Of a stretch of DNA of 64,000 bases, positions 10,774 to 57,669 are shown one piece after another; position 1 is the stretch's first letter, and each line of letters begins with the position of its first letter. Source of the stretch: Lachnospiraceae bacterium (GTDB lineage Bacteria > Bacillota > Clostridia > Lachnospirales > Lachnospiraceae). Both the position numbers and the translations under genes were made by a program. The notes under the pieces were generated by a model that was not told the origin of the DNA, did not search any database, and worked only from the letters and a program-made list of their open reading frames with translations. Location of the stretch: the NCBI GenBank assembly GCA_022652545.1, contig JALCRM010000001.1:186001-250000 (forward strand), given 5' to 3'.

Positions 10774-10875
10774 TCCATGCCGGGAAAAGACATAGTCGTG
10801 AATGCAGGCACCAGACTCCGTTTGAGGGGGCCTGGCGCCTGTATTACTGTCTGTCGGGGGAAGGAAAAGGGGAAA

Positions 10876-19400: not shown

Positions 19401-19429
19401 ATGACGCTGTGCCCTGTTTGCGATATAAT
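19401..19429 (+). promoter_or_regulatory. possible internal promoter
   Basis: TATAAT (19424-19429) lies 17 bases after ATGACG, which shares four of six positions with TTGACA. It could start a transcript at the GT2/DUF2304 pair. Confidence 0.4.
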
Positions 19430-19468
19430 ACAGAGAACCTGGCACACGAGCACAGGGGGAGGAAAAGG

Positions 19469-20164
19469 ATGCAGGATAAGATCCTCGTCATGATCCCGGC
19501 TTACAACGAATATCTGAACCTGCCGCAGGTGATCTCCGAACTGCAGGAAAAATGTCCCGGATACGATTATGTCATCGTCAATGACGGTTCTACGGACAGT
19601 ACCCGGAAACTGTGCAACAGCAGGCACTACAATGTCCTGGACCTGCCTGTGAACCTGGGACTTGCGGGAGCGGTGCGCGCCGGGATGAAGTACGCCAATT
19701 ACTACGGGTACGACTATGCCGTGCAAATCGACGGCGACGGGCAGCACTGCCCGGAGTACATTGCGGAGATGATCGCCCGCATGAAAGAAACGGGTTCGGA
19801 CATCGTCATCGGCTCGCGTTTCAAAACACAGAAAAAGCCGTTCACCATGCGGATGCTCGGCAGTCATATGATCTCCGGTGCGCTCTGGCTGACCACCGGG
19901 GGCAAAAGGATCAGCGATGTGACAAGCGGCATGCGGCTGTTCAGCAAAAAAATGATCAGGCGGTTCGACTACGGGATGAATTACCGCCCGGAGCCCGATA
20001 CACTGGCCTATCTGCTCAACCACGGCGTGAAGATCGAGGAAGTGCAGGTGAGCATGCGGGAACGGATATCGGGCAGGAGCTATCTTGGTTTTTTCAGTTC
20101 CATAGGCTACATGGTCCATGTGCTGTTCAATATTTTCGTGGTACAGTGGTTCAGAGAGGGATGA
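19469..20164 (+). CDS. GT2 family, dolichol/polyprenyl-phosphate sugar synthase-like
   Basis: The protein has 231 residues from ATG 19469, behind GGGGAGGAAAAGG. ILVMIPAYNEYLNLPQVISELQ, YVIVNDGSTDSTRKL, NLGLAGAVRAGMKYA and VQIDGDGQHCPEYI match the DPM1-like subgroup of GT2, which transfers a sugar to a polyprenyl phosphate. There are no C-terminal transmembrane helices of the GtrB kind. The small DUF2304 membrane protein encoded next may anchor it. That pairing recurs in bacterial glycan clusters, but the role of DUF2304 remains inferred. Confidence 0.85.
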   Translation: MQDKILVMIPAYNEYLNLPQVISELQEKCPGYDYVIVNDGSTDSTRKLCNSRHYNVLDLPVNLGLAGAVRAGMKYANYYGYDYAVQIDGDGQHCPEYIAEMIARMKETGSDIVIGSRFKTQKKPFTMRMLGSHMISGALWLTTGGKRISDVTSGMRLFSKKMIRRFDYGMNYRPEPDTLAYLLNHGVKIEEVQVSMRERISGRSYLGFFSSIGYMVHVLFNIFVVQWFREG

Positions 20165-20218
20165 TACCGCAGCTGCGGATCTTTCCCTGCAGGCGCAGAC
20201 ACTGCGGCAGAGGTGGAT

Positions 20219-20647
20219 ATGACAGTCGTATTACGGGTTCTTCTGCTTTTGGCATCGCTGTTTACCGCATTCATGATCATGCGGAAAATACGCAAGTGCC
20301 GGATCAAACAGGAAGATACACTGTTCTGGATCGTTTTTTCCGTGATGCTTGCGCTCCTGGGCATCTTTCCGGGGATCTCGTACAGTATGGGCGCGCTGCT
20401 GGGGATACATTCCCCGGCCAATTTCGTATACCTTGTGATCATCGCGCTTCTCGTGGAGAAGCTTCTGTCTGTTTCCATTCAGGTGTCCATGCTGGAAAGC
20501 AAGGTGGAAGTGCTTTCCGCTGAGCTTGCGATCCGCTGCAAGGACCTGCAGGATCACGCTGCGCCGTCTTCTGAAAAGGAGCCTGCAGCGGATTCCGTAC
20601 CCGGCGGGACAGAAGACAGGGACCAGGAGAAAGACGGGGAAAAATAG
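20219..20647 (+). CDS. DUF2304 family small membrane protein
   Basis: The protein has 142 residues. It has an N-terminal transmembrane helix, a short basic loop (MRKIRKCRIKQEDTLFWIVFSV), two more hydrophobic segments (GIFPGISYSMGALLGI, FVYLVIIALLVEKLLSVSIQVSMLE), and a coiled-coil-like then acidic tail. This order is characteristic of DUF2304. The start may be GTG 20213 or ATG 20219; I list the ATG. It follows the polyprenyl-phosphate sugar synthase-like gene and probably acts as its membrane partner. Confidence 0.72.
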   Translation: MTVVLRVLLLLASLFTAFMIMRKIRKCRIKQEDTLFWIVFSVMLALLGIFPGISYSMGALLGIHSPANFVYLVIIALLVEKLLSVSIQVSMLESKVEVLSAELAIRCKDLQDHAAPSSEKEPAADSVPGGTEDRDQEKDGEK

Positions 20648-20666
20648 GACGGAGAGGACCGGATCG

Positions 20667-21521
20667 ATGCAGCAGAGTCAGGCACACAAGACGAAATATG
20701 CGGCGGCAGATCTGACCTTTGCGATCTGCGCCTACAAAGAGAGTCCCTGGCTGGAGGACTGCATCCTGTCCGTCAGAAAAAACGACCCGTCCGTCCATGT
20801 CCTGATCGCAACGTCCACGCCCAACGACTTGATCCGCGGGCTCGCGGAGAAATACCGGATCCCGCTGCATGTTAATGTGGCTTCCGGAGAGGGCGGCATA
20901 GCCGCGGACTGGAATTACTGCTACAGCTGCGCGGAAACGCGCCTCGTGACCATCACGCACCAGGACGATGTGTATGCACCGGCCTATGCGGAACGCGTCA
21001 CGGCCTATCTTGACAGGGCGGCGGCGCCGCTGATCGCCTTCACAGATTATTCGGAGATCCGGGAAAGCGGAACGGTCACGGACAGCCGGATGCTGCGCGT
21101 CAAACGCAGGATGCTGAGACCGCTGACACGGCCGGAAGCCTGGTCTGCAGTCAAAACAAGGCGCCGCATTCTTTCCTTCGGGAACCCCGTCTGCTGTCCT
21201 TCTGTCACCTATGTAAAGGAAGCTCTTCCGGAGATGCCGTTTGCCCCGGGATACCGCAGCAATATCGACTGGCAGGCCTGGGAAAAATTTTCGCGCATGG
21301 AGGGAGATTTTGTCTACTGCCCGGAGATCCTGATGTCTCACAGGATCCATGAGGGGTCGGCAACTTCCGAGATCATTGCGGACCACGACAGGACGAAGGA
21401 AGACCTGGATATGCTGCGCCGCTTCTGGCCGGAGCCGGCAGCGCGGTTCCTGGAACTGTTTTATCGTGCCGGGGAGAGGCAGAATGCCGCCGGACCGCAC
21501 ACGAAGGGCGGCGGACAATGA
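20667..21521 (+). CDS. glycosyltransferase family 2
   Basis: The protein has 284 residues from ATG 20667. TFAICAYKESPWLEDCILSVRKNDPSVHVLIATSTPN is a GT-A opening. ITHQDDVYAPAYAERV has the acidic donor/metal site in a less common form (HQDD). The middle contains GNPVCCPSVTYVK, typical of inner-core type GT2 proteins. The stop overlaps the fucosyltransferase start (ATGA), so the two are translated together. Confidence 0.8.
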   Translation: MQQSQAHKTKYAAADLTFAICAYKESPWLEDCILSVRKNDPSVHVLIATSTPNDLIRGLAEKYRIPLHVNVASGEGGIAADWNYCYSCAETRLVTITHQDDVYAPAYAERVTAYLDRAAAPLIAFTDYSEIRESGTVTDSRMLRVKRRMLRPLTRPEAWSAVKTRRRILSFGNPVCCPSVTYVKEALPEMPFAPGYRSNIDWQAWEKFSRMEGDFVYCPEILMSHRIHEGSATSEIIADHDRTKEDLDMLRRFWPEPAARFLELFYRAGERQNAAGPHTKGGGQ

Positions 21522-22396
21522 TCAGGGTGAACGTCACGGGAGGACTGGGCAATCAGATCTTCTGCTACTGCTGTGCGCGGGCCCTGCAGGAGGAGACCGG
21601 GCAGGAGATCGAGCTGAACACCTGGGAACTGAACAGATACGAATCCTTCCGGGAGTTCAGCCTTTCGGATTTCCGGCTGAAGGAGCCGGTCCGCATCTCG
21701 GACAGCGAACTGCCTTGGTATGCCCATCGGCGCAGCCTGCGCGGGGCACTGCTCCGCAGGATCTCGCCCGAACTCATGAAGAGCAGCGGGATACGGCACA
21801 ATTCCCACATCTGGTATCAGCTTTCCTATACGGAATTTCCCGCTCCCGACCCGGAAAAGGACATCTGTCTCGGCGGCTACTGGCAGTCTGAAAAATATTT
21901 TTCCGGATGTCTTCCGGCGCTGCGCAGCGAACTGCAGCTCACCGATGCCGCGAGGGACGCGTTCCCGAAGGATGCCGCAGCCCTGGAGAGACAGATCCTG
22001 GACAGCAGGTCCGTCTGTATTCATGTGCGGCGCGGCGATTATATGAAACTGGGGTACGGCGTCTGCGGAACGGCCTATTACCGGGAAGCAATGCGCCGGA
22101 TGGAAGAGAATGCGGAAGACATCACGTATTTTGTCTTTTCGGACGACCCGGCCTGGGCAAGGGAAAACATCGTACCCGGCCGTACGACGGTTTATGCCGC
22201 GGTACACCGCCCGTCCTGCGACCTGTATCTGATGAGCCGCTGCCACGATTTCATTCTGGCCAACAGCTCCTTCAGCTGGTGGGCGCAGGAACTGAACCCC
22301 TGCAGCGGCAGGCGCGTGATCGCGCCGGCAAAATGGCATACGAAGCTGGCTGTCAGGGACATCTGGAAGGAAGACTGGGAGAAGATCGACGTATGA
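21518..22396 (+). CDS. alpha-1,2-fucosyltransferase-like protein (GT11)
   Basis: The protein has 292 residues. The GT11 hallmarks are the start IRVNVTGGLGNQIFCYCCARAL, then SVCIHVRRGDYMKLG at ~165-179 (the HxRRGDY motif that binds GDP-fucose), and DFILANSSFSWWAQELN near the C-terminus. These enzymes add fucose in alpha-1,2 linkage, often to galactose. No gene for GDP-fucose synthesis is in the window, apart from the mannose-1-phosphate guanylyltransferase that could feed such a route. ATGA overlaps link it to the genes on both sides. Confidence 0.9.
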   Translation: MIRVNVTGGLGNQIFCYCCARALQEETGQEIELNTWELNRYESFREFSLSDFRLKEPVRISDSELPWYAHRRSLRGALLRRISPELMKSSGIRHNSHIWYQLSYTEFPAPDPEKDICLGGYWQSEKYFSGCLPALRSELQLTDAARDAFPKDAAALERQILDSRSVCIHVRRGDYMKLGYGVCGTAYYREAMRRMEENAEDITYFVFSDDPAWARENIVPGRTTVYAAVHRPSCDLYLMSRCHDFILANSSFSWWAQELNPCSGRRVIAPAKWHTKLAVRDIWKEDWEKIDV

Positions 22397-23439
22397 GCAC
22401 TGAGATTTCCCTGATCATTGATATTTACAACGGCATGCATTATCTGCGCCCCTGCCTGGATTCTGCGCTCCGTCAGTTTTTCGACGGCTATGAGATCCTC
22501 CTTGTGGACGACGGCTCCACGGATGGCTCGGGGGCTCTGGCGGATGAATACTGCGCTGCCCACCCCGAAAGGATCCGGGTCATCCACCAGGAGAACAGGG
22601 GACTTGCAGGCTCCCGCAACACGGGGATCCGGGAGGCCGCGGGAAAATACATAGCATTTGTCGACCAGGACGACGAGCTGGAGCCGGATTATCTCGACAG
22701 GCTGCACAGCGCGGCGGCCGGGCAGGATGAACCGGCTTACGTCGTCTGCGGCTACACCAGGATCGACGGAAACGGGAAAGCGGTCGACGAGAGAAACGTC
22801 CTCAACTGGACGGAAAAACTGGACGACGGGAGAGAGCATGTTTTCACCTATACGGCATGGGGAAGGCTGTACAACAGAGATTTTCTCCTGCGCAGCGGAC
22901 TCTGGTTCATAGAAGGCGAAGGGTTCGAGGACGGGCCGTTCAACATCTATGTGAATACAGCTGCTCCGAAGACGACGGCGCTCGGATATATGGGGTACCG
23001 CTACCGCGTGAATGAGACCTCCACCATGGCGATGGTGAAAAAAACGGGGATGCACGACAACGACAAGGTCATGAAGATCCCTTACCGGGGGCTGGAGAAC
23101 ACGATCTGCCTGCTTCGCAAAAACTTCGGAAACAGGTATGATGACATTCTCTGCTATGAGATCGTGCGCAACCTTACGGGGCTGCTGTTCCTGACGGCGG
23201 AGACGAGCTCGGAAGCAGAGATCAGGAAGGCGGCAGATTTTTCGGGAACGCTGCTGCGGAAGTATTTCGGCGATATCCGCGACAACCCCTACCTTGCGAT
23301 CGGACGTCTGAAAAAGTTTCCTCTGCCGTACAGGATCTCCGTGGCCTGGTTTGCCGGAGCCTACCGCAGAAAGAGGATCTTTGCCTACGCCATGTTCTAC
23401 AGACGCTTCCGTTTCCTCGGACGGCTGAAAAAGGCCTGA
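22393..23439 (+). CDS. glycosyltransferase family 2
   Basis: The protein has 348 residues from ATG 22393; the long track start at 21907 is a shadow inside the fucosyltransferase gene. ISLIIDIYNGMHYLRPCLDSALRQFFDGYEILLVDDGSTDGSG, then GLAGSRNTGIREAAGKYIAFVDQDDELEPDYL, gives the GT-A fold with DQDD at the metal site. The remainder is predicted helical and basic at the end (FRFLGRLKKA), perhaps for membrane contact. Confidence 0.87.
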   Translation: MSTEISLIIDIYNGMHYLRPCLDSALRQFFDGYEILLVDDGSTDGSGALADEYCAAHPERIRVIHQENRGLAGSRNTGIREAAGKYIAFVDQDDELEPDYLDRLHSAAAGQDEPAYVVCGYTRIDGNGKAVDERNVLNWTEKLDDGREHVFTYTAWGRLYNRDFLLRSGLWFIEGEGFEDGPFNIYVNTAAPKTTALGYMGYRYRVNETSTMAMVKKTGMHDNDKVMKIPYRGLENTICLLRKNFGNRYDDILCYEIVRNLTGLLFLTAETSSEAEIRKAADFSGTLLRKYFGDIRDNPYLAIGRLKKFPLPYRISVAWFAGAYRRKRIFAYAMFYRRFRFLGRLKKA

Positions 23440-23458
23440 GCGGAAGGAGAGGACGGAA

Positions 23459-24640
23459 ATGGATCAGAACGGGAAAGCACGGAAAAAACTGCTTTATCTC
23501 TGCACCTATGACCTGACGGTACCGACGTCCATCGGGGTGAGCAAAAAGATCCGCGCGCAGAGGCGCGTGTTTTCGTCGTACTTTGAGGTGTCCTACACCT
23601 GTTTTGAAAACGGCCGTTTTGTGATCAGAAACGAGGAAGGGGTCCAGCAGGACCTCGGGAAACCGGGATTTCCGGGCCGGGTACAGGCGGTCGGAAGACT
23701 CGCGGACTACTGCCGGCTGCCGGGAAACTGTCCGGATCTGATGTACTTCCGGTACACGCAGTCGGACCCGAACGTGCTGCGCTTTCTGAAGCTTCTGCAG
23801 GAGAGGGGCAGTACGGCGCTGCTAGAGATCCCGACCTGGCCGTATGAAAAGGAGTACTGCGACAACTTCCCCGATTATATGAGCCTGCAGATCGACAGGC
23901 TCTGCCGGGGACAGCTGAAAAAATACGTCCATGTCATCTATTCCTACGGGGCAGTCCCGGACCGGATCTTCGGCATTCCGACCTGCACACTGCAGAACGG
24001 CATCGATCTGGAGGACCTGCCGGAAAGAGTGCCGGTACCGCACGGGGAGACGGTCTCGCTGATCGCGGTCGCTGTTTTTGCAGACTGGCACGGCTATGAC
24101 AGGTTTCTTGCCGGCATGGGGGAATATTACCGGAACGGCGGCAGCAGGGATATCCACCTGGACCTTGTGGGCGGCGGACCTGCGCTGGAAGGCTACAGGG
24201 AGCTCGTCAGCAGGGAAAAGCTGGAGGAGCACGTGACATTTCAGGGCTTTCGTTCGGGCCGGGAACTGGACAGGCTCTACGACAGGGCCGATATCGCGGT
24301 TTCCACGCTGGGCTGTCACCGCAAGGGTATATACGGCTCGATCAGCAGCCTGAAGGACAGAGAGTACGGCGCCAAGGGACTTCCTGTCATTACGTCGACG
24401 GAGATCGATATTTTTCCGTCGGCTCAGTATGACTTCATCCTGAAGGTGCCGGACAACGATTCGCCGGTAGCCATGAAAGAGGTTCTGGCGTTTGCGGACC
24501 GCATGAAGGAGCAGAAGGATCTGTCCGGCAGGATCCGGGCTCTGACGGCGGAAAAGAGTGACATCGGTATTACGATGCAGCCGGTCATCAGGGAATTTCT
24601 GGGAAATGAGCAGGGAAAGGCGGAAAAATCATGCATGTGA
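23459..24640 (+). CDS. glycosyltransferase family 4-like
   Basis: The protein has 393 residues. The N-terminal half is divergent (KLLYLCTYDLTVPTSIGVSKKIRAQRRVF). The C-terminal half shows a GT-B donor domain: QNGIDLEDLPERV, LIAVAVFADWHGYDRFL, LDLVGGGPALEGYRELV, VTFQGFRSGRELDRLYDRADIAVSTLG. The end YGAKGLPVITSTEID replaces the classical EAMA motif. A ribosome site GGAAGGAGAGGACGG precedes it. It overlaps manC by ten bases. Confidence 0.8.
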   Translation: MDQNGKARKKLLYLCTYDLTVPTSIGVSKKIRAQRRVFSSYFEVSYTCFENGRFVIRNEEGVQQDLGKPGFPGRVQAVGRLADYCRLPGNCPDLMYFRYTQSDPNVLRFLKLLQERGSTALLEIPTWPYEKEYCDNFPDYMSLQIDRLCRGQLKKYVHVIYSYGAVPDRIFGIPTCTLQNGIDLEDLPERVPVPHGETVSLIAVAVFADWHGYDRFLAGMGEYYRNGGSRDIHLDLVGGGPALEGYRELVSREKLEEHVTFQGFRSGRELDRLYDRADIAVSTLGCHRKGIYGSISSLKDREYGAKGLPVITSTEIDIFPSAQYDFILKVPDNDSPVAMKEVLAFADRMKEQKDLSGRIRALTAEKSDIGITMQPVIREFLGNEQGKAEKSCM

Positions 24641-27701: not shown

Positions 27702-27717
27702 GCGGAATGCGCCCAAG

Positions 27718-29196: not shown

Positions 29197-29238
29197 ACGG
29201 ACAGACCGCCGCGGATAAAGGAAACGACCGGGGAAAGC

Positions 29239-31266: not shown

Positions 31267-31291
31267 ACGCGGGATGACCGCGGAACAGGCA

Positions 31292-31310
31292 GTCCCGGAG
31301 ATGCCGGGAC
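31292..31310 (+). other. hairpin in the 29239/31330 intergenic gap
   Basis: GTCCCGG-AGATG-CCGGGAC is a perfect 7-bp stem without a following T-run. It may stabilise or punctuate the mRNA and is not a convincing terminator. Confidence 0.35.
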
Positions 31311-31329
31311 GGCGGAAGGAAACCGTAGG

Positions 31330-34454: not shown

Positions 34455-34464
34455 GGGCGAAGAA

Positions 34465-35439
34465 GTGAAAAGGAAGAAGATCAGCGTCATAGTACCGTGC
34501 TACAACGATGAAAAGAGTGTGGTCAGCCTCTGCGCGACCGTGAGGGAAATGTTCGGCGGACCGCTCAAAGACTACGATTACGACATCATCTATGCGGATG
34601 ACGATTCCGCGGACGGCACGCGGGCAAAGGTGCGGGAGCTCTGCGCGGCGGACAGGCATGTGCGGGCCGTCTTCAACATGGCCAACTTCGGCTTTTCGAG
34701 AAATGTTTTTTCCGCACTGCAGGAATCGGACGGCGATGCGGCCTTCCTTGTTTTCGGAGACCTGCAGGACCCGCCGGAGCTGCTGCCGGAATTTGTCAGG
34801 AAGTGGGAAGCGGGCAGCAAGGTCGTCGTCGGGCGCAAGATCGCCAGTGACGAGAGCCATATCATGAACTGGTGGAGAAACTGCTACTACAGGGTCATAC
34901 GGGCGCTGTCGGAGAAGCCGCAGATCGAGGAATTCAACGGTTACGGACTGTACGACCGCCGGTTTATCGAAGTCCTGCGCAACATCGGCGACGTGCAGCC
35001 GTATCTGAAGACTGTGGTGTCCGAGTACGCGCCGGACTGCGCATCGGTGGAGTACCGTCACCATAAGTCGGGGCGCGGCCGCTCCAATTTCAATTTTTAC
35101 AAAAACTATGACTTCGCCATGGAGGGCATCACCTCCTCCACCAAGAAGCTGCTGCGGGCCTCCACTTACCTCGGGGCAGGGTTAGGCATCATCAGCGTGA
35201 TCTACGCACTGTATGTCCTTATCCGGAAGCTGACGAGCTGGAATACCTACCCGGCAGGCCTCGCTTCAATCATGATCGGCGTCTTTATCCTGGGGTCCGC
35301 GGAACTTTTCTTCATCGGGATACTGGGGGAGTACGTGCTCAGCATCAACACCCGCACCATGCGCAAGCCCCGCGTCATCGTGGACGAGCGCATCGGCTTC
35401 GACGAGGAGCCGGAAAAGACGGACGATGGAGGACATTAA
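34465..35439 (+). CDS. GtrB/ArnC-like polyprenyl-phosphate glycosyltransferase (GT2 with two C-terminal helices)
   Basis: The protein has 324 residues, starting at GTG 34465 after GAGGGCGAAG. ISVIVPCYNDEKSVVSLCATV, YADDDSADGTRAKV, FGFSRNVFSALQES and VFGDLQDPPELLPEFV give the GT2 core with its QDPP motif. A charged amphipathic region and two C-terminal membrane helices (~230-310) end in ISINTRTMRKPRVIVDERIGF-type sequence, as in GtrB and ArnC. The enzyme should attach a sugar to undecaprenyl phosphate at the inner face. The neighbouring GT-C gene is the natural consumer. Confidence 0.88.
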   Translation: MKRKKISVIVPCYNDEKSVVSLCATVREMFGGPLKDYDYDIIYADDDSADGTRAKVRELCAADRHVRAVFNMANFGFSRNVFSALQESDGDAAFLVFGDLQDPPELLPEFVRKWEAGSKVVVGRKIASDESHIMNWWRNCYYRVIRALSEKPQIEEFNGYGLYDRRFIEVLRNIGDVQPYLKTVVSEYAPDCASVEYRHHKSGRGRSNFNFYKNYDFAMEGITSSTKKLLRASTYLGAGLGIISVIYALYVLIRKLTSWNTYPAGLASIMIGVFILGSAELFFIGILGEYVLSINTRTMRKPRVIVDERIGFDEEPEKTDDGGH

Positions 35440-36367
35440 GCAGATCGTCAAGAGCATACCCGGACTCGGCAGCGCCGTTTCCTCTCTGAAATGGCGCGAG
35501 CGCAGGGTCTCGTACGGGCCGGAAAATCCGGACCGCACTTTTTATGTGATCAGGCGGCATGCCGAACACGGGGGACTTTTCTCCTTCGTGTCGACGAACC
35601 TGGGAGCGGTGGAGGAAGCGGTCTCCAAAGGCTATACGCCGGTGATCGACATGATGAACAGCCCGAATCCCATGCTGCGGCCGGACGAAGTCGGCCGCGT
35701 CAACGCCTGGGAGGACTATTTCCTGCAGCCGTGCGGCTTTTCCCTGCAGGACATCGCCAGGTCAAAACACGTGATCCTGGGCAGCATAGAGCCTCCCGCG
35801 CGTTTTCCGGACTACGATATGATGGAAGATCCGGCAGAGCTGGCAGGATGGCAGCAGAGCGCACACAGGTACCTGAAGCTGCAGCCGGCACTGAAGCAGC
35901 AGGCGGACCGCTGGTATGCCGATACCTTCGGCGGAAGCCGGGTCCTCGGCGTACTGTGCCGCGGGACCGATTACGTGCAGAAAAAGCCTTACCGCCACCC
36001 GGTACAGCCGGATACGGAAAGCGTGATCGAAAAGTGCCGCGAGGTGATGGCAGCGCAGAAGTGCGAATCTGTCTATCTCGCCACGGAAGACGAGGAGATC
36101 TGGGAACGTTTCGGGGAAGCCTTCGGCGACATTGTACACAGCTTCCAGAAGCACCGGTTCCGTACGCAGCAGGGACAGAACATCAACGATGTGGGCAACG
36201 GGATACTCGGACCCAGGGAGCGGAATACGGAGTATCTGATCTCCGTCGCGGTACTGTCGGACTGCACCTGTCTCACCGCAGGCGCGGCGAGCGGGACCTA
36301 CGGCGCGCTGCTCCTCACGAAGGGCTATGAATATCAGTATGTCTTCTGCCTCGGCAGATACCTGTAG
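35426..36367 (+). CDS. fucosyltransferase-fold protein (O-FucT/GT23-like)
   Basis: The protein has 313 residues and no membrane segment. VLGVLCRGTDYVQKKPYRHPVQPDTESVIEKCREVM, then CESVYLATEDEEIWERFGEAFGD and LTAGAASGTYGALLLTKGYEYQYVFCLG, follow the GDP-binding half of GT23/O-fucosyltransferase-type proteins (the R-G-T-D-Y block, then the ATED block). The N-terminal half is divergent. Assignment to a GDP-sugar transferase is reasonable; fucose specificity is a guess strengthened by the GT10 gene two genes on. It overlaps the previous gene by 14 bases. Confidence 0.6.
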   Translation: MEDIKQIVKSIPGLGSAVSSLKWRERRVSYGPENPDRTFYVIRRHAEHGGLFSFVSTNLGAVEEAVSKGYTPVIDMMNSPNPMLRPDEVGRVNAWEDYFLQPCGFSLQDIARSKHVILGSIEPPARFPDYDMMEDPAELAGWQQSAHRYLKLQPALKQQADRWYADTFGGSRVLGVLCRGTDYVQKKPYRHPVQPDTESVIEKCREVMAAQKCESVYLATEDEEIWERFGEAFGDIVHSFQKHRFRTQQGQNINDVGNGILGPRERNTEYLISVAVLSDCTCLTAGAASGTYGALLLTKGYEYQYVFCLGRYL

Positions 36368-36376
36368 GAGCGGCGC

Positions 36377-37591
36377 ATGGTGAACGCGATCTATCTGACA
36401 TCCAGGATCTATCCGATGAACAACGGAGGCACTCTGCACGACTACGGAAACTGCACCTTTCTTTCCGGTCTGCTGCGCCTGACCGTTTTTTCCTGTCTCG
36501 ATCCGTCCGCCGACCGGGCCGCGGCGCAGGCACGCTTCAGGGACGAACCGTTTGCCTCGGAGTTCTGCACCCGTCCGGACCGCGCGCATTCCATGGAGTA
36601 TGTCCGTGCGAGGCTCCGTCTCATCGAGCCGGTCGACACCGACCTGTACCGGAGGATCGAACAGCTTGCGGAGAGGGAACGCACGGGGATCGTCTTTTTT
36701 ACGCTGAAGATGAGCCTGTATGCGGAAAAACTGAAGGCGGCGCACCCGGCCCTGCACCTGATCTGCATCTCACACAACAGCGAGTACGTCAACATACGGG
36801 ACGATCTGAAAAAATACGATACATCGCGCGGAACGGGGCGCCTCAGGCACTTCTCCAAAATGCTGCGGGCACGGTTCTTCGAAGCGCAGGAGAAAAAGGC
36901 ACTTTCGGAATCCGATTTCGTGTTCAGCATATCGGAGAACGACAGCAGGCGCCTTTCCTCCCACTACGGGATCCCCGCCGCCCGCTTTGTCACCTGCAAG
37001 CCGATGATCCGCTTCCACAGCCCGAGGGGAGACGCCGATTCAAGGACATACCGCCACAGCCTGCTCATCGTCGGCAACATGAACTGGTATCCTACAGCTG
37101 CCGGTGCCGTGCGCTTTGCAAAGGAGATCTTCCCTGCACTGCTTGCGGAGGATCCGCAGCTGCGCCTGTACATCGTGGGCGCAAACCCGGCGCCGGAAGT
37201 GCAGGCGCTTGCGGGCGGCGGGGCAGACAGCCCGGTCATCGTCACGGGCTTCGTGCAGGACGTCGACGAATATTATGAGAAATGCGATATTGCCGTGGTG
37301 CCTGTCCTTACCGGGACCGGTGCCAAGATCAAGGTGCTGGAAGCGCTGGGAAAACATATCCCGGCGGTGCTTACCGCTTATGCGGCGGAGGACTATCCCG
37401 GGTCGGAGACCTGCGCGCACGTCGCCCCGGCCTTTGCGGATCTGCTCCCGCAGACCCTTTCCCTGATGCGGGAGGAAGCGGAGCGCATACGCACGGAAAG
37501 AGCGGAAGAGCAGTACTACAGGGAGTATATGTCTGACAGCGCGTCGGTGCGCGCCTGTATCAGGCGGATCACAGAGGCGGCCGATGAGTGA
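36377..37591 (+). CDS. glycosyltransferase family 4-like
   Basis: The protein has 404 residues, preceded by AGGAG. N-terminal AIYLTSRIYPMNNGGTLHDYG resembles the acceptor domain of GT4 enzymes. The donor domain has LLIVGNMNWYPTAAGAVRFAKEI, LRLYIVGANPAPEVQALA, VTGFVQDVDEYYEKCDIAVVPVLTGTGAKIKVLEALGKHIPAVLT, in which KVLEALG is the EX7E-type donor loop. It overlaps the GT10 gene by eight bases. The donor is unknown. Confidence 0.86.
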   Translation: MVNAIYLTSRIYPMNNGGTLHDYGNCTFLSGLLRLTVFSCLDPSADRAAAQARFRDEPFASEFCTRPDRAHSMEYVRARLRLIEPVDTDLYRRIEQLAERERTGIVFFTLKMSLYAEKLKAAHPALHLICISHNSEYVNIRDDLKKYDTSRGTGRLRHFSKMLRARFFEAQEKKALSESDFVFSISENDSRRLSSHYGIPAARFVTCKPMIRFHSPRGDADSRTYRHSLLIVGNMNWYPTAAGAVRFAKEIFPALLAEDPQLRLYIVGANPAPEVQALAGGGADSPVIVTGFVQDVDEYYEKCDIAVVPVLTGTGAKIKVLEALGKHIPAVLTAYAAEDYPGSETCAHVAPAFADLLPQTLSLMREEAERIRTERAEEQYYREYMSDSASVRACIRRITEAADE

Positions 37592-38588
37592 ACTGACCGA
37601 ATACATGAAGGCCTGCAAGAGGATCCTGCAGCAGGACAGGCCGAAACAGCCTGCGGAGTGGGACGGCATCTCCTATGTCAACTGGTGGGACGGGGCAGCG
37701 GAGGAAATGTGGTTCTCGCGCTTCCTTTCGCACCGGCTGCCGGACCGCACGAAAAATGTGCGCTTTTACAGTGTATTCGGCCCGAGAAGGCGCCTGCACG
37801 ACGGCTTCCGCGGGGCCAGGATCTTTTATTCCGGAGAGAATGTGGAGCCGGGGCGCCTCTGCAAGAATGTGCGCATGAACAGAAGGAGCGCGCTGTATTT
37901 TTACGGCCACAGGGTCAGGACCTACGGCGACTATGCGCTGCCGCTCATGGATCTCTCCCTTGGATTCGGACACCGGACGGAGGACAATTACCTTCGCTTT
38001 CCGGAGTGGATCCCTTTCACGTTTGAACCGGAAAGCGGTCCCCGGGAGGTCAGGGAGCGCGTGGCGCAGATCAACGCTGCCATGCCCCGCAGCGACGCCG
38101 CGGGGGCCCTGCTCCTTGCAAGCCACGACGATTTCGGGACCCGGACCAGCATCGCCGACGGCCTGACCGGCATCCTCGACATTACCTACGGCGGGAAATT
38201 CCGCAACAATTCGAATGCCCTGAAAACGCGGTTTGAAGACGACAAGCTGCGCTATCTCCGCACGTTCCGCTTCAATATCTGCCCGGAGAACACCGACACG
38301 GAGGGATACTGCACGGAAAAACTGTTCGATTCCTTCCGCACCGGCACGATACCTGTCTACAACGGTTCGCACAACGATCCGGAGCCGGGACTCGTCAACA
38401 GGGATGCGGTGGTCTTCTGGGATTTTGACGGAGACAATGCGGAAAGCATCCGCCTCATCAGGGAACTGGATGCTGACGACAGGAAAAGAGAGCGGTTTCT
38501 GAAACAAACGCGCCTTACGGACGCGGCAGCCGACTATGTCTGTGAGGAACTGGAACAGCTGAAGGAAAGGATAAGGGCGCTCACATGA
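37584..38588 (+). CDS. GT10 family alpha-1,3-fucosyltransferase-like protein
   Basis: The protein has 334 residues. The signature block FRFNICPENTDTEGYCTEKLFDSFRTGTIPVYNGSHNDPE (~229-268) is the conserved alpha-1,3/4-fucosyltransferase motif that binds GDP-fucose. Upstream are FYSGENVEPG and KNNSNALKTRF-like FRNNSNALKTRFEDDKLRYL, also family features. There is no membrane anchor. With the GT11 gene at 21518, this suggests a fucosylated glycan with both alpha-1,2 and alpha-1,3 branches. ATGA overlaps the next gene. Confidence 0.88.
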   Translation: MSELTEYMKACKRILQQDRPKQPAEWDGISYVNWWDGAAEEMWFSRFLSHRLPDRTKNVRFYSVFGPRRRLHDGFRGARIFYSGENVEPGRLCKNVRMNRRSALYFYGHRVRTYGDYALPLMDLSLGFGHRTEDNYLRFPEWIPFTFEPESGPREVRERVAQINAAMPRSDAAGALLLASHDDFGTRTSIADGLTGILDITYGGKFRNNSNALKTRFEDDKLRYLRTFRFNICPENTDTEGYCTEKLFDSFRTGTIPVYNGSHNDPEPGLVNRDAVVFWDFDGDNAESIRLIRELDADDRKRERFLKQTRLTDAAADYVCEELEQLKERIRALT

Positions 38589-39742: not shown

Positions 39743-40793
39743 AATAACGCGCGCGGACATATGCGGAGATCTGCCGGCGGTCGTAGCTTTCATAGCCGGA
39801 GATCATGCGGTCCAGGCAGTCCGCAAGGCTCTGCGGGTCTCCGGCCTTAAAGAGCAGGCCGAGGCCGGGGGCGGAGAGGATCTCAGCCGGGCCTTCGAGG
39901 TCGGAGGCAATGCAGGGGAGCCCTGTCGCCAGAGCTTCCACCAGCGCGATGCCGAAGCCTTCGTAGCGGGAGGGCAGCACAAAAATATCCGCCGCGGCGA
40001 GGAAAGCTCCGATATCGTCCACGCTGCCGAGAAAATGCACGCGGTCTTCCAGATGTTTTGACCGGACGCTTTCCTGCAGGGAACGGAAGGCCTCTTCCTG
40101 CCCTTTGGCCGCGGCACCCGCAAAGTCACAGCGCAGGGCCGGGTACCTTTCGGCCAGCAGGGCGATCGCATCGAGCAGGACGTCCTGTCCTTTTTTTTTC
40201 GGGAAAACACGGGCCACGTTTACGACCCGGATGGCATCCCGCTCGCGCAGAGGCGGCCGGGAGGGACGATCGCAATATTGGAATTTATGCGTGTTTATGG
40301 CATTATATATGGTAATGACGCGGGCCGGATCCATGTGTCTTGTCAGGATCTCCGTCCGCACCGATTCCGAGATCGCGATCGTCTCGGAGCAGAGCCGGTT
40401 GGCGAGGAAGATCTTGGCCCCGGAATAAGAGGAATAATTGCCGCTGTCGTGCACCGTGTTGAGGATGGCAAGGCGCGGATGGAAGAGCTTCGCGGTGAGG
40501 GAAAACAGCACGCAGTTGATGCCCTGGCAGTGCAGGATGTCGATGCGGTATCTGCCGACAGCGTCGGAAAGCGCCTTCATCGTGCGGGGGGAGAACTTCG
40601 AGCCTGCCGCGCGGCGTAGCCGCAGAACCGTCACCTCCGGGGAAAGCCGGGATAACAGGGACTCCGTGATGTCGTCGTTGATGACACACAGGTAAATGTG
40701 CTGCCCCCGTCCTGCCATACAGGCGGAGAGGTCGATCAGAAGGCGCTCTATGCCTCCCGTATTGAAGGAAAAGATCAGATACATGATATTCAT
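39648..40793 (-). CDS. glycosyltransferase family 4, the only minus-strand gene in the glycan locus
   Basis: The protein has 381 residues. MNIMYLIFSFNTGGIERLLIDLSACMAGRGQHIYLC is a textbook GT4 opening (GGxER). AISESVRTEIL, VNVARVFPKKKGQDVLLDAIALLAERYPALRCDFAG, and FVLPSRYEGFGIALVEALATGLPCIASDLEGPAEIL (EX7E as EGFGIALVE) complete it. ATG 40793 is seven bases downstream of a TAAAAT -10-like element, and no SD is visible, so the message may be leaderless. ATG 40784 is an alternative start. It faces the upstream GT4 gene tail to tail. Confidence 0.9.
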   Translation of the reverse strand: MNIMYLIFSFNTGGIERLLIDLSACMAGRGQHIYLCVINDDITESLLSRLSPEVTVLRLRRAAGSKFSPRTMKALSDAVGRYRIDILHCQGINCVLFSLTAKLFHPRLAILNTVHDSGNYSSYSGAKIFLANRLCSETIAISESVRTEILTRHMDPARVITIYNAINTHKFQYCDRPSRPPLRERDAIRVVNVARVFPKKKGQDVLLDAIALLAERYPALRCDFAGAAAKGQEEAFRSLQESVRSKHLEDRVHFLGSVDDIGAFLAAADIFVLPSRYEGFGIALVEALATGLPCIASDLEGPAEILSAPGLGLLFKAGDPQSLADCLDRMISGYESYDRRQISAYVRARYSIEEMTDRHLELYRRLLRGKSQEKQAPGHPM

Positions 40794-40821
40794 GAGGTTT
40801 ATTTTACTACCTGGATATGCC

Positions 40822-40836
40822 CCGGCACAATGCCGG
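40822..40836. other. palindrome in the divergent gap
   Basis: CCGGCA-CAA-TGCCGG sits between the divergent starts at 40793 and 40865. It could be an operator or an RNA hairpin in the ABC-transporter leader. Confidence 0.35.
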
Positions 40837-40864
40837 CTGTAATGCAGGCGGAGCGGAGAGTGCG

Positions 40865-44543: not shown

Positions 44544-44561
44544 CCAGGTCCGGGCAGGACA

Positions 44562-44570
44562 TGCTATAAT
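44562..44570 (+). promoter_or_regulatory. extended -10 promoter inside the glycan locus
   Basis: TGCTATAAT is a perfect extended -10. No good -35 is visible. It would start a transcript about 80 bases before ATG 44660, covering the last five genes of the locus. Confidence 0.55.
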
Positions 44571-44659
44571 CGTTCGGATGCCGTACGTTGTGCACAGTGT
44601 CTTTGGCCGGGTGCGGTCCGGGGGAACGGAAGGCCTGCCCGCGGAGGAAACGAAGAGTC

Positions 44660-45604
44660 ATGGACAAAGAACAGAAGTTTGTTTCCGTAGTTGCGTACAT
44701 GCGCAATACCGGTGACGGCGCCGCAGTGTTTCTCGACACTGTGATGGGTGCCTGCTCTGCCATGTTCGAAAAATGCGAACTGGTGCTGATCGACGACTGC
44801 TCCGACGACGGTTCGGCCGAAGCGGTGCGTGAATACTGCAGGACACATTCCACTCCCTACATGGTGAGCATCCTGAAGACCAGCTGCCCGCAGGGCCTCG
44901 AATCCTCGATGAACGCGGGAAGGGATATCGCGATCGGGGATTACGTGTATGAATTTGACGACATGTTTGTCGACTATCCGGCGGACGTGATCGAAAAGGC
45001 CTACCGCAAGTGCCTGGAAGGCTGCGATATCGTTTCCGTGATGAGCGATGCAAAACAGCATGCCACCTCGAAGTGGTTCTACAATCTGTTCAACCTGGCC
45101 AACCGCACCAGGGAGAAGATCGGTCCGTCCACGCTGCGCCTGCTTTCAAGGCGCGCCATCAACCGCGTCAAGTCAATGGGGACCTACATTCCGTACCGCA
45201 AGGCGGTCTATGTAAACAGCGGCCTGTCCGTTGCGCAGATCGTCTATCACAGCACGCTGAAGGACAGCAGGTTCACGGTGCACAGCCACCGCGGGGAACG
45301 GGCGGGACTTGCGGTGGATTCCTTCATCTATTTTACGGATGTCATGGAAAAGTTTTCGCTGGTGCTCAGTTTTGTCTTCTTCGGTCTGGTGCTGGCGGTG
45401 ATCGTCTACATTTTCGTGTCGCTGTTCACCGACAAGAACCTGATCTCAGGCTGGGTCTCCACCATGGGCTTTCTCTCCCTGGGATTCCTGGGCGTTTTTG
45501 CGCTGCTGACCATCGTGCTGCGCTATCTGTCCGTCCTCGTGAATCTTGTTTTCCGTCAGAAACGGTATCTGGTCGAGAGCGTGGAAAAAATATCCGGCGA
45601 TTGA
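44660..45604 (+). CDS. GT2 family membrane-anchored glycosyltransferase
   Basis: The protein has 314 residues from ATG 44660, behind GGAGGA. VSVVAYMRNTGDGAAVFLDTVMGACSAMFEKCELVLIDDCSDDGSAEAV is a GT2 start. The metal/donor site reads EFDDMFVDYP, a divergent form of the usual D-x-D. After ~residue 235 there are two strong membrane helices (LVLSFVFFGLVLAVIVYIFVSLF, MGFLSLGFLGVFALLTIVLRYLSVL), as in GtrB-type polyprenyl-phosphate sugar synthases. The substrate is not predictable. Confidence 0.78.
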   Translation: MDKEQKFVSVVAYMRNTGDGAAVFLDTVMGACSAMFEKCELVLIDDCSDDGSAEAVREYCRTHSTPYMVSILKTSCPQGLESSMNAGRDIAIGDYVYEFDDMFVDYPADVIEKAYRKCLEGCDIVSVMSDAKQHATSKWFYNLFNLANRTREKIGPSTLRLLSRRAINRVKSMGTYIPYRKAVYVNSGLSVAQIVYHSTLKDSRFTVHSHRGERAGLAVDSFIYFTDVMEKFSLVLSFVFFGLVLAVIVYIFVSLFTDKNLISGWVSTMGFLSLGFLGVFALLTIVLRYLSVLVNLVFRQKRYLVESVEKISGD

Positions 45605-45629
45605 AAAGCCGGATGCAGGCAGGTGCAAA

Positions 45630-46808
45630 TTGTCCGACAGCAGGAGATATGACAGGATCATCATAGGCGCGGGGCTCTACGGCATGTATGCGGCAAGGCT
45701 CTGCGGCGCGCGCGGAGAGAAGGTGCTGGTGCTCGAGTACGATCCGCAGCCCTTCATGCGCGCGACAACGGTGAACCAGGCCCGCGTGCACATGGGATAC
45801 CATTACCCGCGCAGCCTGACTACCGCGTGCAAGTCGGCAGGCTACTACCGGCGTTTCCATGAAGATTTTCCCTTTGCGATCTTTGACAGCTTCGAGCAGA
45901 TCTATGCGACCAGTGCGCAGTTTTCCTGGACGGATGCGGCCGAGTTCCGCAGCTTCTGCAAAGCCGCCGGGATACGCTGCGACGAAGTTGCCGCAGGACG
46001 TTTCTTCCGGCCGGGCATGTGCGACGGCGCATTCCTGACGGAGGAGGACACCTACGATGCCGCTGCGCTGCGGGATTATTTCGTGGACGAGACCGGGAGG
46101 ATGCCCAACGTGGAGATCGTATTCGGCGCACGCCTTTCCGTGATCCTGCAGGGGAGCACCGAGTACACGCTGCGGTATTCCGTCGCCGGGGACGCGGAGC
46201 CGGAAAGAGTATACGAGGCGGCTTCGCCCTTTGTCCTGAATGCCGGCTATGCCTCCGTCAACCAGATCCTTTCGAGGGTGCACACTGGGGAGCGGGGGGA
46301 CGCGGACGACAATTTCAGCCGGTTCGCGATCAAGTACGAGCTTTGCGAGATCATTCTGTGCAAAGCGTCCGATAACCTGAAAAAATACGGGATCACCGTC
46401 ATGGACGGACCGTTCTTCTCCATCATGCCGTTCGGTCTCACCGGTCTCCATTCCCTGACCAGCGTGACCTTTACGCCGCATGCCACCTGCCCCGACTCTC
46501 CGCCGGTGTTTGCCTGCCAGGAAGGGACGGACTGCAGTCCGGAGCAGCTCGGCAACTGTACGGAGTGCCCGCACAGGCCCGTGTCGGCGTGGCCGTACAT
46601 GAGCCATCTGGCGGACAAGTATCTGCGCCCGGAGTACAGCTACGGGTATACCGGTTCGCTGTATTCGATGAAGCCGATCCTGCGCAGCTCGGAGGTGGAC
46701 GATTCCAGACCCACGGCGATCCGTGTGAACAGCAGAAAGCCCGGATTCGTCAGCGTTCTGTCCGGGAAGATCGACACGGTCTACGACCTGGATGAATTCC
46801 TGCAATGA
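45630..46808 (+). CDS. FAD-dependent oxidoreductase of the D-amino-acid-oxidase type
   Basis: The protein has 392 residues from TTG 45630. No ATG or GTG exists near, and an earlier start would overlap the previous gene. YDRIIIGAGLYGMYAARLCGARGEKVLVLEYD is the FAD-binding motif at the very N-terminus. Next are ATTVNQARVHMGYHYPRS and FVLNAGYASVNQIL. A cysteine-rich patch CQEGTDCSPEQLGNCTECPHRP near residue 315 is unusual and could bind a metal. Its place among GT2 and aminotransferase genes suggests oxidation of a sugar or sugar nucleotide, but no direct evidence is available. Confidence 0.72.
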   Translation: MSDSRRYDRIIIGAGLYGMYAARLCGARGEKVLVLEYDPQPFMRATTVNQARVHMGYHYPRSLTTACKSAGYYRRFHEDFPFAIFDSFEQIYATSAQFSWTDAAEFRSFCKAAGIRCDEVAAGRFFRPGMCDGAFLTEEDTYDAAALRDYFVDETGRMPNVEIVFGARLSVILQGSTEYTLRYSVAGDAEPERVYEAASPFVLNAGYASVNQILSRVHTGERGDADDNFSRFAIKYELCEIILCKASDNLKKYGITVMDGPFFSIMPFGLTGLHSLTSVTFTPHATCPDSPPVFACQEGTDCSPEQLGNCTECPHRPVSAWPYMSHLADKYLRPEYSYGYTGSLYSMKPILRSSEVDDSRPTAIRVNSRKPGFVSVLSGKIDTVYDLDEFLQ

Positions 46809-46847
46809 GAGCCGGCTGCGGACAGCAGCGTAGGAAAGGAAATCTGC

Positions 46848-47594
46848 ATGACGACGGAAATTCTGTTTCCTGTTTTGAATGAACATTTGCGCCTGGAGAA
46901 GGGGATCCGCAGGACAGTGGAGTATATACGGGACCATGTCGATGCGGAAAGGTACCCGTGCAGGCTGACGATCGTGGACAACGGCTCGGACGATGACACG
47001 CCGGAGATCGGGAAACGGCTTGAAGCGGAGTTCCCGGAGGTGCATTACCTCGGCATCAGGGAGCGCGGAGTCGGGATCGCGTTCCGCACAGGCGTGGAAC
47101 AGAGCACGGCAGACATCGTGGGCTACATGGACATCGATCTTTCCACCGATATCCGCAACCTCGGAAAGACAATCGAGCTGTTTGATGCGAGGCCGGAGAT
47201 CGACTATGTGAATGCTTCGCGCTTCGGGAGCGGCGCAGAGACCACAGGGCGGAAATGGTACCGGAAGATCACCTCCAGGGGACTGCTTTTCCTTCTCCGC
47301 ACGCAGCTGAAAATGAGATCCTCCGATGCGATCGCCGGCTTTACCTTCCTGCGCAGGGAGAAGGCCCTGCAGCTCGTCAGGGAATGCTACAGCGACAACG
47401 GCTGGTTCTATATGATCGAGTTCCTGCTGCGCGCGGAGCGGGACGGCATGCGGATCCTGGACATGCCCGTGGACTGGACCGAGGATTACGATACGACCGT
47501 GCATGTCTGGAAAACGATACGCAATTACATGAAAAACATAGCGCGCCTGCGCAGGACCTTTTCGGAAGAGGACAGGCAGGGGAAAAAACACTGA
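46848..47594 (+). CDS. GT2 family, polyprenyl-phosphate sugar synthase-like
   Basis: The protein has 248 residues. TEILFPVLNEHLRLEKGIRRTVEYI, LTIVDNGSDDDTPEIG, VGIAFRTGVEQSTADIVGYMDIDLSTDIRNL and IAGFTFLRREKALQLV follow the DPM1-like subgroup. The donor site is DIDLS. There is no C-terminal membrane anchor. A GGAAAGG site precedes it. It probably loads a lipid phosphate for the GT-C protein encoded at 48745, two genes on. Confidence 0.82.
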   Translation: MTTEILFPVLNEHLRLEKGIRRTVEYIRDHVDAERYPCRLTIVDNGSDDDTPEIGKRLEAEFPEVHYLGIRERGVGIAFRTGVEQSTADIVGYMDIDLSTDIRNLGKTIELFDARPEIDYVNASRFGSGAETTGRKWYRKITSRGLLFLLRTQLKMRSSDAIAGFTFLRREKALQLVRECYSDNGWFYMIEFLLRAERDGMRILDMPVDWTEDYDTTVHVWKTIRNYMKNIARLRRTFSEEDRQGKKH

Positions 47595-47618
47595 AAGTGC
47601 GCCGGGGAAGGAGAAGTT

Positions 47619-48710
47619 TTGCTTAAGAGAGTTGATCTGACAAGAGATTTTGCAAGGCACAGGGAAGAATATATGGCGGCCATTACGAAGGTCTGTGAGG
47701 AGACAGCCTTTTCCGGCGGCAGATACGCGGACCGTTTCGAGGAAGAACTTGCCGGATATCTGGGCGTCCGGGCTGCTTCGTGCGTGAACAACGGAACGAG
47801 CGCGCTGCACCTGGCCATGCTTGCGCTGGGCGTCGGCCCCGGAGACGAGGTCATCGTACCGGCCAACACCTATATCGCGACAGCCTGGGGCGTCAGCTAT
47901 ACCGGCGCGGTACCGGTGTTTACGGACTGTACGGCGGACACCTGGGAAATAGACCCGGACGGGATCGAAGCGAAGATCACGCCCCGTACGAAGGGCATCA
48001 TCGGCGTACATCTTTACGGACAGCCGTTCGATTTTGCGAGGGTAAAGGAGATCGCGGACAGGCACGGGCTGTTTGTCGTCGAAGACTGCGCGCAGGCGAT
48101 CGCAGCGGAATTTGAAGGGAAAAAAGTGGGAGGGCTCGGAGACATCGGATGCTTCAGCTTTTACCCGGGCAAAAACCTCTATGCCTTCGGGGAAGGCGGT
48201 GCGGTCACTTCCAATGACCGGGCTGCCATTGACCGGATCAATGTCATCAAGAACCAGGGGTGCCGGGTGAGATACTACCACGAGACGCTCGGATACAATT
48301 ACAGGATGGAAGGGATACAGGGGGCTGTCCTCAGCGTATCGATGAAGTACCTGGAGGGCTGGACGGCAAGAAGACAGCAGATCGGCCGGCGCTATCTTCA
48401 GGAGATCCGCAACCCCGGGATCGTCATGCAGGCACACCCTGCCAACACGACGCCCGTATTCCATCTTTTTGAGATCGAAACGCCGGATCCGGAAGGCCTG
48501 ATCGCCTACATGAAGGAACACGACGTGGAATGCAACCGCCACTATCCGGTCCCCTGCCATCTGCAGCAGGCGTATGCCGCTCTCGGAGGACGGAAAGGGG
48601 ACTGCCCGAATGCCGAAAAACTCGCCTCGCAGTGTGTTTCCCTTCCGCTGTTTCCGGAAATGACGGATGAGGAAGCAGAATACGTGATCGATCTTTGCAA
48701 CCGGTACTGA
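47619..48710 (+). CDS. DegT/DnrJ/EryC1/StrS-type sugar aminotransferase
   Basis: The protein has 363 residues from TTG 47619, five bases after AAGGAG. The fold-type I PLP enzyme motifs are complete: NNGTSALHLAMLALGVGPGDEVIVPANTYIATAWGV, FVVEDCAQAIAAEFEGKKVGGLGD and FSFYPGKNLYAFGEGGAV with Lys185 as the Schiff-base lysine. These enzymes aminate keto-sugar nucleotides (often dTDP- or UDP-linked 3- or 4-keto sugars). No keto-sugar-forming dehydratase is in the window other than perhaps the SDR at 12919, so its substrate comes from elsewhere or remains unknown. Confidence 0.9.
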   Translation: MLKRVDLTRDFARHREEYMAAITKVCEETAFSGGRYADRFEEELAGYLGVRAASCVNNGTSALHLAMLALGVGPGDEVIVPANTYIATAWGVSYTGAVPVFTDCTADTWEIDPDGIEAKITPRTKGIIGVHLYGQPFDFARVKEIADRHGLFVVEDCAQAIAAEFEGKKVGGLGDIGCFSFYPGKNLYAFGEGGAVTSNDRAAIDRINVIKNQGCRVRYYHETLGYNYRMEGIQGAVLSVSMKYLEGWTARRQQIGRRYLQEIRNPGIVMQAHPANTTPVFHLFEIETPDPEGLIAYMKEHDVECNRHYPVPCHLQQAYAALGGRKGDCPNAEKLASQCVSLPLFPEMTDEEAEYVIDLCNRY

Positions 48711-52232: not shown

Positions 52233-52278
52233 GTCTTCCCGGTGTCCGTATGGAGACTGTCGGAACCGGCAGGGAGCG

Positions 52279-52287
52279 TGTTATAAT
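52279..52287 (+). promoter_or_regulatory. extended -10 promoter of the second glycan cluster
   Basis: TGTTATAAT is an extended -10. It lies between the rny terminator and the next gene. The expected start (~52294) rules out the ATGs at 52250-52289 and favours GTG 52322. Confidence 0.55.
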
Positions 52288-52321
52288 GATGTCCGGTCCG
52301 GCGCACGGAGGAAACGGCAGG

Positions 52322-53911: not shown

Positions 53912-53921
53912 GAGATGCGGG

Positions 53922-53957
53922 GCGGTGACAAAGCACCGGCTGCCCGCATTCGGAGGA
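53922..53957 (+). repeat. leader repeat copy 4
   Basis: GCGGTGACAAAGCACCGGCTGCCCGCATTCGGAGGA matches parts of copies 1 and 2 (GCACCGGCTGCCC, then CATT-CGGAG). It supplies the SD of the GT2 gene at 53964. The small SD hairpin is missing. Confidence 0.5.
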
Positions 53958-53963
53958 ACACCA

Positions 53964-56068: not shown

Positions 56069-56101
56069 TACGATACGGAAAGCGTTCCGCGAGGTAGCCG
56101 T

Positions 56102-57655: not shown

Positions 57656-57669
57656 AAGAAAACGGGAAT

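Follow-up and report, generated by a model that had tools for sequence, protein, structure and literature searches.

A recX-rny glycan island of a gut-type Lachnospiraceae bacterium as a probable locus of multi-component transmembrane glycosylation

Extracytoplasmic glycosylation that relies on several pairs of a glycosyltransferase family 2 (GT2) synthase and a GT-C transferase is documented in lactococci and Listeria, and L. lactis has three such pairs, according to the sections of two sources on which we draw throughout (PMC8035078, PMC10821137). One GtrA-type protein serves several pairs in Listeria and Lactococcus (PMC8035078, same sections), and in lactococci DUF2142 proteins are candidates for polymerases or ligases (PMC12599335). 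Such a system is in principle not new, being already known from Lactococcus (Csd/Wps) and Listeria (Gtl/Gtt). Here we describe a 64,000-nucleotide stretch (C1:186001-250000, hereafter the window) from the draft genome of a gut-type Lachnospiraceae bacterium (2.67 Mb, 27 contigs, 81% complete), in which an island of glycan-type genes lies between recX and rny. With moderate confidence we read this island as a surface-polysaccharide locus using multi-component transmembrane glycosylation. An earlier note on the same DNA, made from its letters alone, had called four GT2 proteins polyprenyl-phosphate-sugar synthases and six polytopic proteins GT-C-like, and had suggested a multi-branch system with dedicated donors of which little is described in Clostridia. 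Its observations were mostly right; its interpretation, though plausible, is broader than the evidence, and "little described" is true of Clostridia but not of Firmicutes, for which the same sections describe the mechanism well (PMC8035078, PMC10821137). The open reading frames (ORFs) that it named all exist on the plus strand with the starts it gave, the starts of GT2_19 and GT2_44 (names as in Table 1) being ATG codons inside the ORFs 19409-20164 and 44588-45604.

The four GT2 proteins (GT2_19, GtrB_34, GT2_44 and GT2_46) all pass Pfam PF00535, and in sequence searches the best Protein Data Bank (PDB) match of each is a polyprenyl-phosphate-sugar synthase (DPMS, GtrB or ArnC). By these matches all four are predicted to be what multi-component transmembrane glycosylation employs, GT-A synthases that load a sugar onto the lipid carrier C55-P, as the earlier note had proposed. 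GtrB_34 is the clearest of them, and its FGDLQD motif is kept in 3 homologues. GT2_19 also matches the AglJ model and, at 2e-25 and below cut-off, the PpgS model NF058614, while three of the GT2 proteins match PgfS best among NCBIfam models, again below its cut-off (1.7e-20 for GT2_44). GT2_44 carries E98-F99-D100 in place of DxD; because EFD is conserved at 90% or more across 33 homologues, the alignment indicates a metal site that is changed rather than decaying. Two other GT2 ORFs, at 20526 and 21907, match general Pfam GT2 models only.

A GT-C assignment is supported by fold or family for five of the six polytopic proteins, GTC_42 being the exception. LIC_25 and LIC_48 both clear the curated cut-off (100 bits) of NF047510, the LIC_10190 model. 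An AlphaFold2 (AF2) model of LIC_48, built with 57 aligned relatives, reached a pLDDT of 93.3 and a pTM of 0.94, and its top 11 PDB matches in Foldseek are all GT-C enzymes (EmbA/EmbB, AglB, AftA, ALG9, ALG3 and ArnT), with AftB and PglB ranking lower, probabilities of 0.99-1.00 and no rival fold at that level. The GTC_33 model likewise matches ALG6 (probability 1.00), ArnT (0.98) and ALG3 (0.97), and its D48 is invariant, so that both predicted structures show the GT-C fold by which the earlier note had proposed to check its claim. By these models and their invariant Asp residues, LIC_48 and GTC_33 fit the description of a GT-C with 8-13 transmembrane (TM) helices and an acidic extracytoplasmic motif; GTC_42, judged by its motif, does not. 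As for the further claim of acidic first loops, D125, invariant in NF047510 proteins within HxDTxxYHxQ, lies past several helices rather than in the literal first loop, and GTC_42 does not conserve an acidic GT-C loop. Within the GTC_27 alignment D37-D38 is invariant, and 7 of the 9 members match PF19528/DUF6056 (best 1.5e-20); GTC_27 does not match it itself, and is likely a GT-C on the strength of its relatives.

PDB profile searches with LIC_10190 and the DUF6056-like group gave no useful sequence match, and fold comparison alone succeeded, for LIC_10190. On the modelled fold, LIC_10190 proteins are predicted GT-C enzymes, an assignment that is new as far as the searched literature shows. 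One genome scan found 523 relatives, and those that could be named are nearly all Lachnospiraceae, which bears out the earlier note's mention of Clostridia. In Butyrivibrio (loci L058-L076) the gene sits among conserved housekeeping genes and belongs to no glycan cluster, a setting that hints at a further, conserved role there. In another Lachnospiraceae genome (L110:9707-18600) recA-recX are preceded by a LIC_10190 gene, roughly 5 kb upstream.

The scheme that we favour builds on observed family and fold assignments, conserved neighbourhoods and an observed insertion site. Cytoplasmic glycosyltransferases would build a lipid-linked unit (ManC, UDP-glucose dehydrogenase (UGDH), epimerase, GT4, GT10, GT11 and NodZ-like genes), which Wzx- or PglK-like proteins would flip. 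Separately, the GT2 synthases would load single sugars onto polyprenyl phosphate, and an unlinked GtrA or the island's PglK/Wzx-like proteins would flip these; GT-C enzymes would then transfer them to growing or finished polymer outside the membrane, decorating or linking it. At least three donor/GT-C sets can be recognised, two in the island (GtrB_34 with GTC_33; GT2_44, FAD_45, GT2_46 and DegT_47 with LIC_48) and one just beyond it (GtrB_53 with GtrII_52). GTC_33 adjoins a GtrB_34 homologue in three congeners (L138, L139 and L140), with synthases 53-68% identical. With several synthases, several GT-Cs and synthase/GT-C neighbours conserved in relatives, the repertoire does exceed a single Gtr set, as the earlier note had it, and the locus also holds parts beyond those it listed, namely the GtrB_53/GtrII_52 pair, the polymerase-like Pol_31 and the PglK-like ABC1 and ABC2. 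The donors, the order of steps, the acceptor and the matching of flippases to donors are what we infer, and our confidence in any single donor or acceptor is much less than in the scheme.

Table 1. Coordinates of the island and of the glycan genes discussed, numbered from the first position of the window.
Feature	Start	End	Strand	Description
Glycan island	11450	50472	+	39 kb, 29 genes, between recX (10777-11409) and rny (50624-52171)
Wzx_11	11450	12745	+	Wzx/MOP-type flippase candidate; 431 aa, 11 TM; hydropathy and context
ABC1	17580	19388	+	PglK-like ABC flippase candidate; best NCBIfam model PglK 9e-91, 305 bits
GT2_19	19469	20164	+	Putative polyprenyl-phosphate-sugar synthase; DGD motif, one C-terminal TM; DPMS 7e-13
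ManC	24631	25962	+	GDP-mannose pyrophosphorylase/isomerase type; PF00483 8e-30, PF01050 2e-8
LIC_25	25959	27701	+	LIC_10190-family GT-C; NF047510 1e-74, 251 bits; 33% identical to LIC_48, key residues in common
GTC_27	27718	29196	+	DUF6056-related GT-C candidate
DUF2142_29	29239	31266	+	DUF2142 protein with N-terminal extracytoplasmic domain; PF09913 5e-29, 101.8 bits (gathering score 30.1)
Pol_31	31330	33012	+	12-TM protein, Wzy-like polymerase candidate; hydropathy; homologues in two congener glycan loci
GTC_33	33009	34454	+	GT-C partner of GtrB_34; AF2 pLDDT 77.5, pTM 0.83
GtrB_34	34465	35439	+	GtrB-type synthase; GtrB sll0501 5e-38, full length; two C-terminal TM
ABC2	40817	42610	+	PglK-like ABC flippase candidate; PglK model 5.5e-113, 378 bits
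GTC_42	42603	44543	+	Degenerate DUF2142 paralogue; hhalign to DUF2142_29 group 99.9%, 1e-31
GT2_44	44660	45604	+	GtrB/ArnC type, 3e-8, aligned over its length; two C-terminal TM
FAD_45	45660	46808	+	FAD-dependent oxidoreductase; PF01266/PF13450
GT2_46	46848	47594	+	DPMS type, DPMS 4e-11; DID motif; no TM
DegT_47	47619	48710	+	Sugar aminotransferase; PF01041 2e-117
LIC_48	48745	50472	+	LIC_10190-family GT-C; NF047510 4e-82, 276 bits
GtrII_52	52250	53911	+	GtrII-type GT-C; PF14264 6.5e-12; downstream of rny
GtrB_53	53964	54917	+	GtrB/PgfS-type synthase; NF047588 1.7e-81, below cut-off; two C-terminal TM; adjoins GtrII_52

Several observations weigh against this scheme. The Foldseek E-values reach only 1e-3 to 1e-2 and are modest for LIC_48 (2e-3 to 3e-2), the GTC_33 model was built on an alignment of only 6 sequences, and the canonical DxD is lost from the GT2_44 sequence. 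A constant association of LIC_10190 with polyisoprenyl-phosphate glycosyltransferases (PI-GT) was unsupported, since a GT2 gene lies within 3.5 kb at only a small share of the 80 loci; LIC_10190 genes often stand alone, and the top Butyrivibrio loci are flanked by housekeeping genes. Neither the island nor the rest of the window has a GtrA gene, priming phosphoglycosyltransferases sit on other contigs, and, in a draft of this completeness, parts encoded elsewhere may be missed. As to the dedicated donors of the earlier note, several donor/GT-C sets are present, but six single-sugar branches cannot be read off, because DUF2142 proteins of lactococci are taken for polymerases or ligases, and that reading is weaker still given the motif loss in GTC_42 and the altered catalytic motif of GT2_44.

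The DUF2142 proteins lead to a different account, which we consider rather unlikely, in which most of the membrane proteins are polymerases or ligases (DUF2142, perhaps LIC_10190) that join or polymerise polyprenyl-phosphate-carried oligosaccharide blocks, as proposed for lactococcal WpsI/WpsJ, with only one or two extracytoplasmic branches. DUF2142_29 carries the conserved PDExxH as VPDEPTH, with PD..H invariant, and may be a polymerase/ligase or a GT-C transferase. GTC_42 had no Pfam hit and failed both the gathering score of DUF2142 (PF09913) and the PDExxH test; PDExxH has become PQERSA and SYSYD has become SYTGS. The motif is likewise lost in its relatives in L051, L053 and L139, each of which adjoins an intact DUF2142 gene, and in the window the intact and degenerate genes are 11 kb apart. 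Judged by these motifs GTC_42 is probably not a catalytic GT-C and makes more sense as a partner without catalytic activity, and such neighbours are perhaps catalytic/non-catalytic pairs. DUF2142 proteins serve to infer WpsI/WpsJ (PMC12599335), and WpsJ is termed, in the sections drawn on, a GT-C that moves a whole side chain (PMC10821137). Pol_31, from its sequence, may also be a polymerase. Although the same island holds block-building glycosyltransferases (GT4, GT10, GT11, NodZ-like and GT2_20/21) along with two PglK-like flippases, several PI-GT-type synthases would be superfluous on this account, and GTC_33 and GtrB_34 form a donor/transferase pair that is conserved. Both points count against block transfer.

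The third donor set centres on a cassette of GT2_44, the flavin adenine dinucleotide (FAD)-dependent FAD_45, GT2_46 and DegT_47. FAD_45 has four clustered conserved cysteines (Cys324/330/338/341, numbered from an ORF start at 45546); as a single protein it had no PDB hit, and its profile matches PDB entries mainly in the N-terminal FAD-binding stretch. The closest solved relatives of DegT_47 are QdtB (3frk, 5e-88) and 2oga (2e-86), which we take to be DesV. QdtB and DesV aminate C3-keto sugars. Because of these relatives an amino-sugar donor is our best guess, and a probable one, for the product: FAD_45 together with the QdtB-like DegT_47 would most likely make a C3-amino sugar, which one of the two GT2 proteins would load onto lipid. 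The 25 non-self Clostridia loci whose surroundings were inspected all have FAD_45 and GT2_44 no more than 2.7 kb apart, 23 of them as direct neighbours; 6 of the loci come from other families of the class. GT2_46 and DegT_47 often accompany the pair, and in 13 non-self loci they are next to each other. Across a 298-genome family panel GT2_46 occurs in 8 other genomes, all 8 among the 24 with FAD_45 (hypergeometric P of about 5e-10, uncorrected for relatedness and thus too small). A literature search found no description of a FAD/GT2/aminotransferase cassette, and the FAD/GT2 pair with its EFD motif is new as far as that literature shows.

A second account, unlikely to a similar degree as block transfer, is that the amino sugar made by this cassette, whether nucleotide-activated or lipid-linked, serves an ordinary step in the cytoplasm, and that the GT-C genes close by are unrelated to it in a crowded glycan locus. 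The GT-C neighbour indeed varies: LIC proteins join the cassette in L080, L081, L082, L084, L124 and L133, elsewhere DUF6056, DUF6020, DUF6044, PMT_2 or unclassified polytopic proteins take their place, and L209 is without a large polytopic gene nearby. Even so, a gene for an 8-12-TM protein lies within 4 kb at most loci, and both cassette GT2 proteins are PI-GT-like. More speculatively, and in our view doubtful, the cassette could be an undescribed pathway in several Clostridia families, in which a polyprenyl-phosphate-bound sugar is oxidised and then aminated; the EFD motif and two membrane helices of GT2_44 would mark it as a specialised synthase or as the protein on which FAD_45 docks, and changing GT-Cs (LIC_10190 and others) would use the lipid-linked amino sugar as donor. 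That lipid-linked donors are used here to glycosylate surface proteins or an S-layer, as in Streptococcus PgfS/PgfM or archaeal AglJ-type systems, is very improbable: the below-cut-off PgfS matches and the AglJ and PpgS matches of GT2_19 point that way, but the UDP-glucose dehydrogenase, Wzx-like and polymerase-like genes indicate a polysaccharide, and a scan of window proteins gave no hit to the STT3/PglB oligosaccharyltransferase family.

The recX-rny location of a glycan island is also new as far as the searched literature shows. In the window recA and recX (9589-11409) are followed by the 29 glycan-type genes and then by rny, and the main genes all lie on the plus strand. We compared the distance between recA and rny, measured between hidden Markov model matches, in the 46 congeners with both genes on one contig: it is 0.84-1.63 kb in 43 of them and 4.1, 4.1 and 7.9 kb in the other three, against 40.1 kb in the source genome. 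The three moderately enlarged gaps carry unrelated genes (an ABC transporter set in one, a different 488-aa gene in two), and a recX-rny hot spot for glycan genes in the genus was unsupported. An assembly artefact is unlikely, because recX and rny flank both island ends on one contig in normal order. The G+C content is 58.2% in the island compared with 54.8% in recA-recX and 52.2% in rny. No transposase or integrase families were seen among the scanned window proteins, and no tRNA or Rfam families were found in the window. The sole intra-island gap above 400 bp (39743-40816, 1,074 bp) holds terminator-like hairpins, and two transcription units are therefore likely. Upstream of recA, polysaccharide pyruvyl transferase genes and a gene for an FrhB-like protein occupy 3973-8065; the long ORFs 28-1941 and 2032-2919 have odd composition and no Pfam match and are possibly not real genes.

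Of the flippase candidates, Wzx_11 had no family match, and ABC1 and ABC2 miss the PglK equivalog cut-off (1000 bits) and are called PglK-like, not PglK; copies of ABC2 that are 56-66% identical occur in congener glycan loci. Elsewhere in the genome a stand-alone GtrA gene lies at C1:264014, 14 kb past the window, and another is in frame with a GT2 on contig C11. Three fucosyltransferase-type families are encoded in the island (GT11, 21518-22396; a weak NodZ-like match, 35426-36367; GT10, 37584-38588) along with ManC (24631), and the genome encodes GMD at another place; by these family matches the island possibly makes a fucosylated, host-like glycan. After rny, a second glycan group (52250-59112) encodes GtrII, GtrB, GT4, MBOAT and a GDSL/DltD-like protein, content that suggests O-acylation.

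The analysis gives a predicted GT-C function class to LIC_10190, a membrane family of hitherto unassigned function that is widespread in Lachnospiraceae, and points out in Clostridia a conserved FAD/GT2 pair. A gut-type lineage of Clostridia may carry lactococcal-style extracytoplasmic decoration further; if so, the decorating sugars would shape the surface met by phages and host.

Among described systems the lactococcal rhamnose cell wall polysaccharide (CsdA/B, CsdC/D, CsdE/F and CflA; WpsA/B/G/H/I/J; PMC8035078, PMC10821137, same sections) resembles this locus in its several PI-GT GT2 synthases, several GT-Cs and DUF2142 proteins and in an unlinked GtrA-type flippase, which here is a candidate. 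Here, by contrast, the sets lie mostly in one recX-rny island, with LIC_10190 and DUF6056-type GT-Cs and PglK-like ABC proteins; the window has the three fucosyltransferase-type families, and its FAD/aminotransferase cassette goes unmentioned for lactococci in those sections. The adjacency of GtrB_53 and GtrII_52, and of GtrB_34 and GTC_33, recalls Gtr O-antigen glucosylation (GtrA/GtrB/Gtr-type GT-C), although the window has no GtrA gene and the lineage is Firmicutes. As in Streptococcus PgfS-PgfM, synthases closest to the PgfS model stand with polytopic partners, yet they score under the equivalog cut-off in a polysaccharide-type neighbourhood. With the ArnC/ArnT aminoarabinose system the window shares a DegT-class aminotransferase, an ArnC-type synthase and ArnT-like GT-C folds; its aminotransferase is nearest QdtB/DesV, not ArnB, and where that system has the ArnA oxidation step, the window has a FAD oxidoreductase. 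The mycobacterial decaprenyl-phosphoryl-arabinose pathway (DprE1/DprE2, Emb; PMC11127046) offers a parallel in coupling a redox step, here a putative one, to a sugar carried on polyprenyl phosphate, and Emb-type GT-C folds are the top LIC_48 matches; FAD_45 differs in that its FAD site is DAO-like and accompanied by a Cys cluster.

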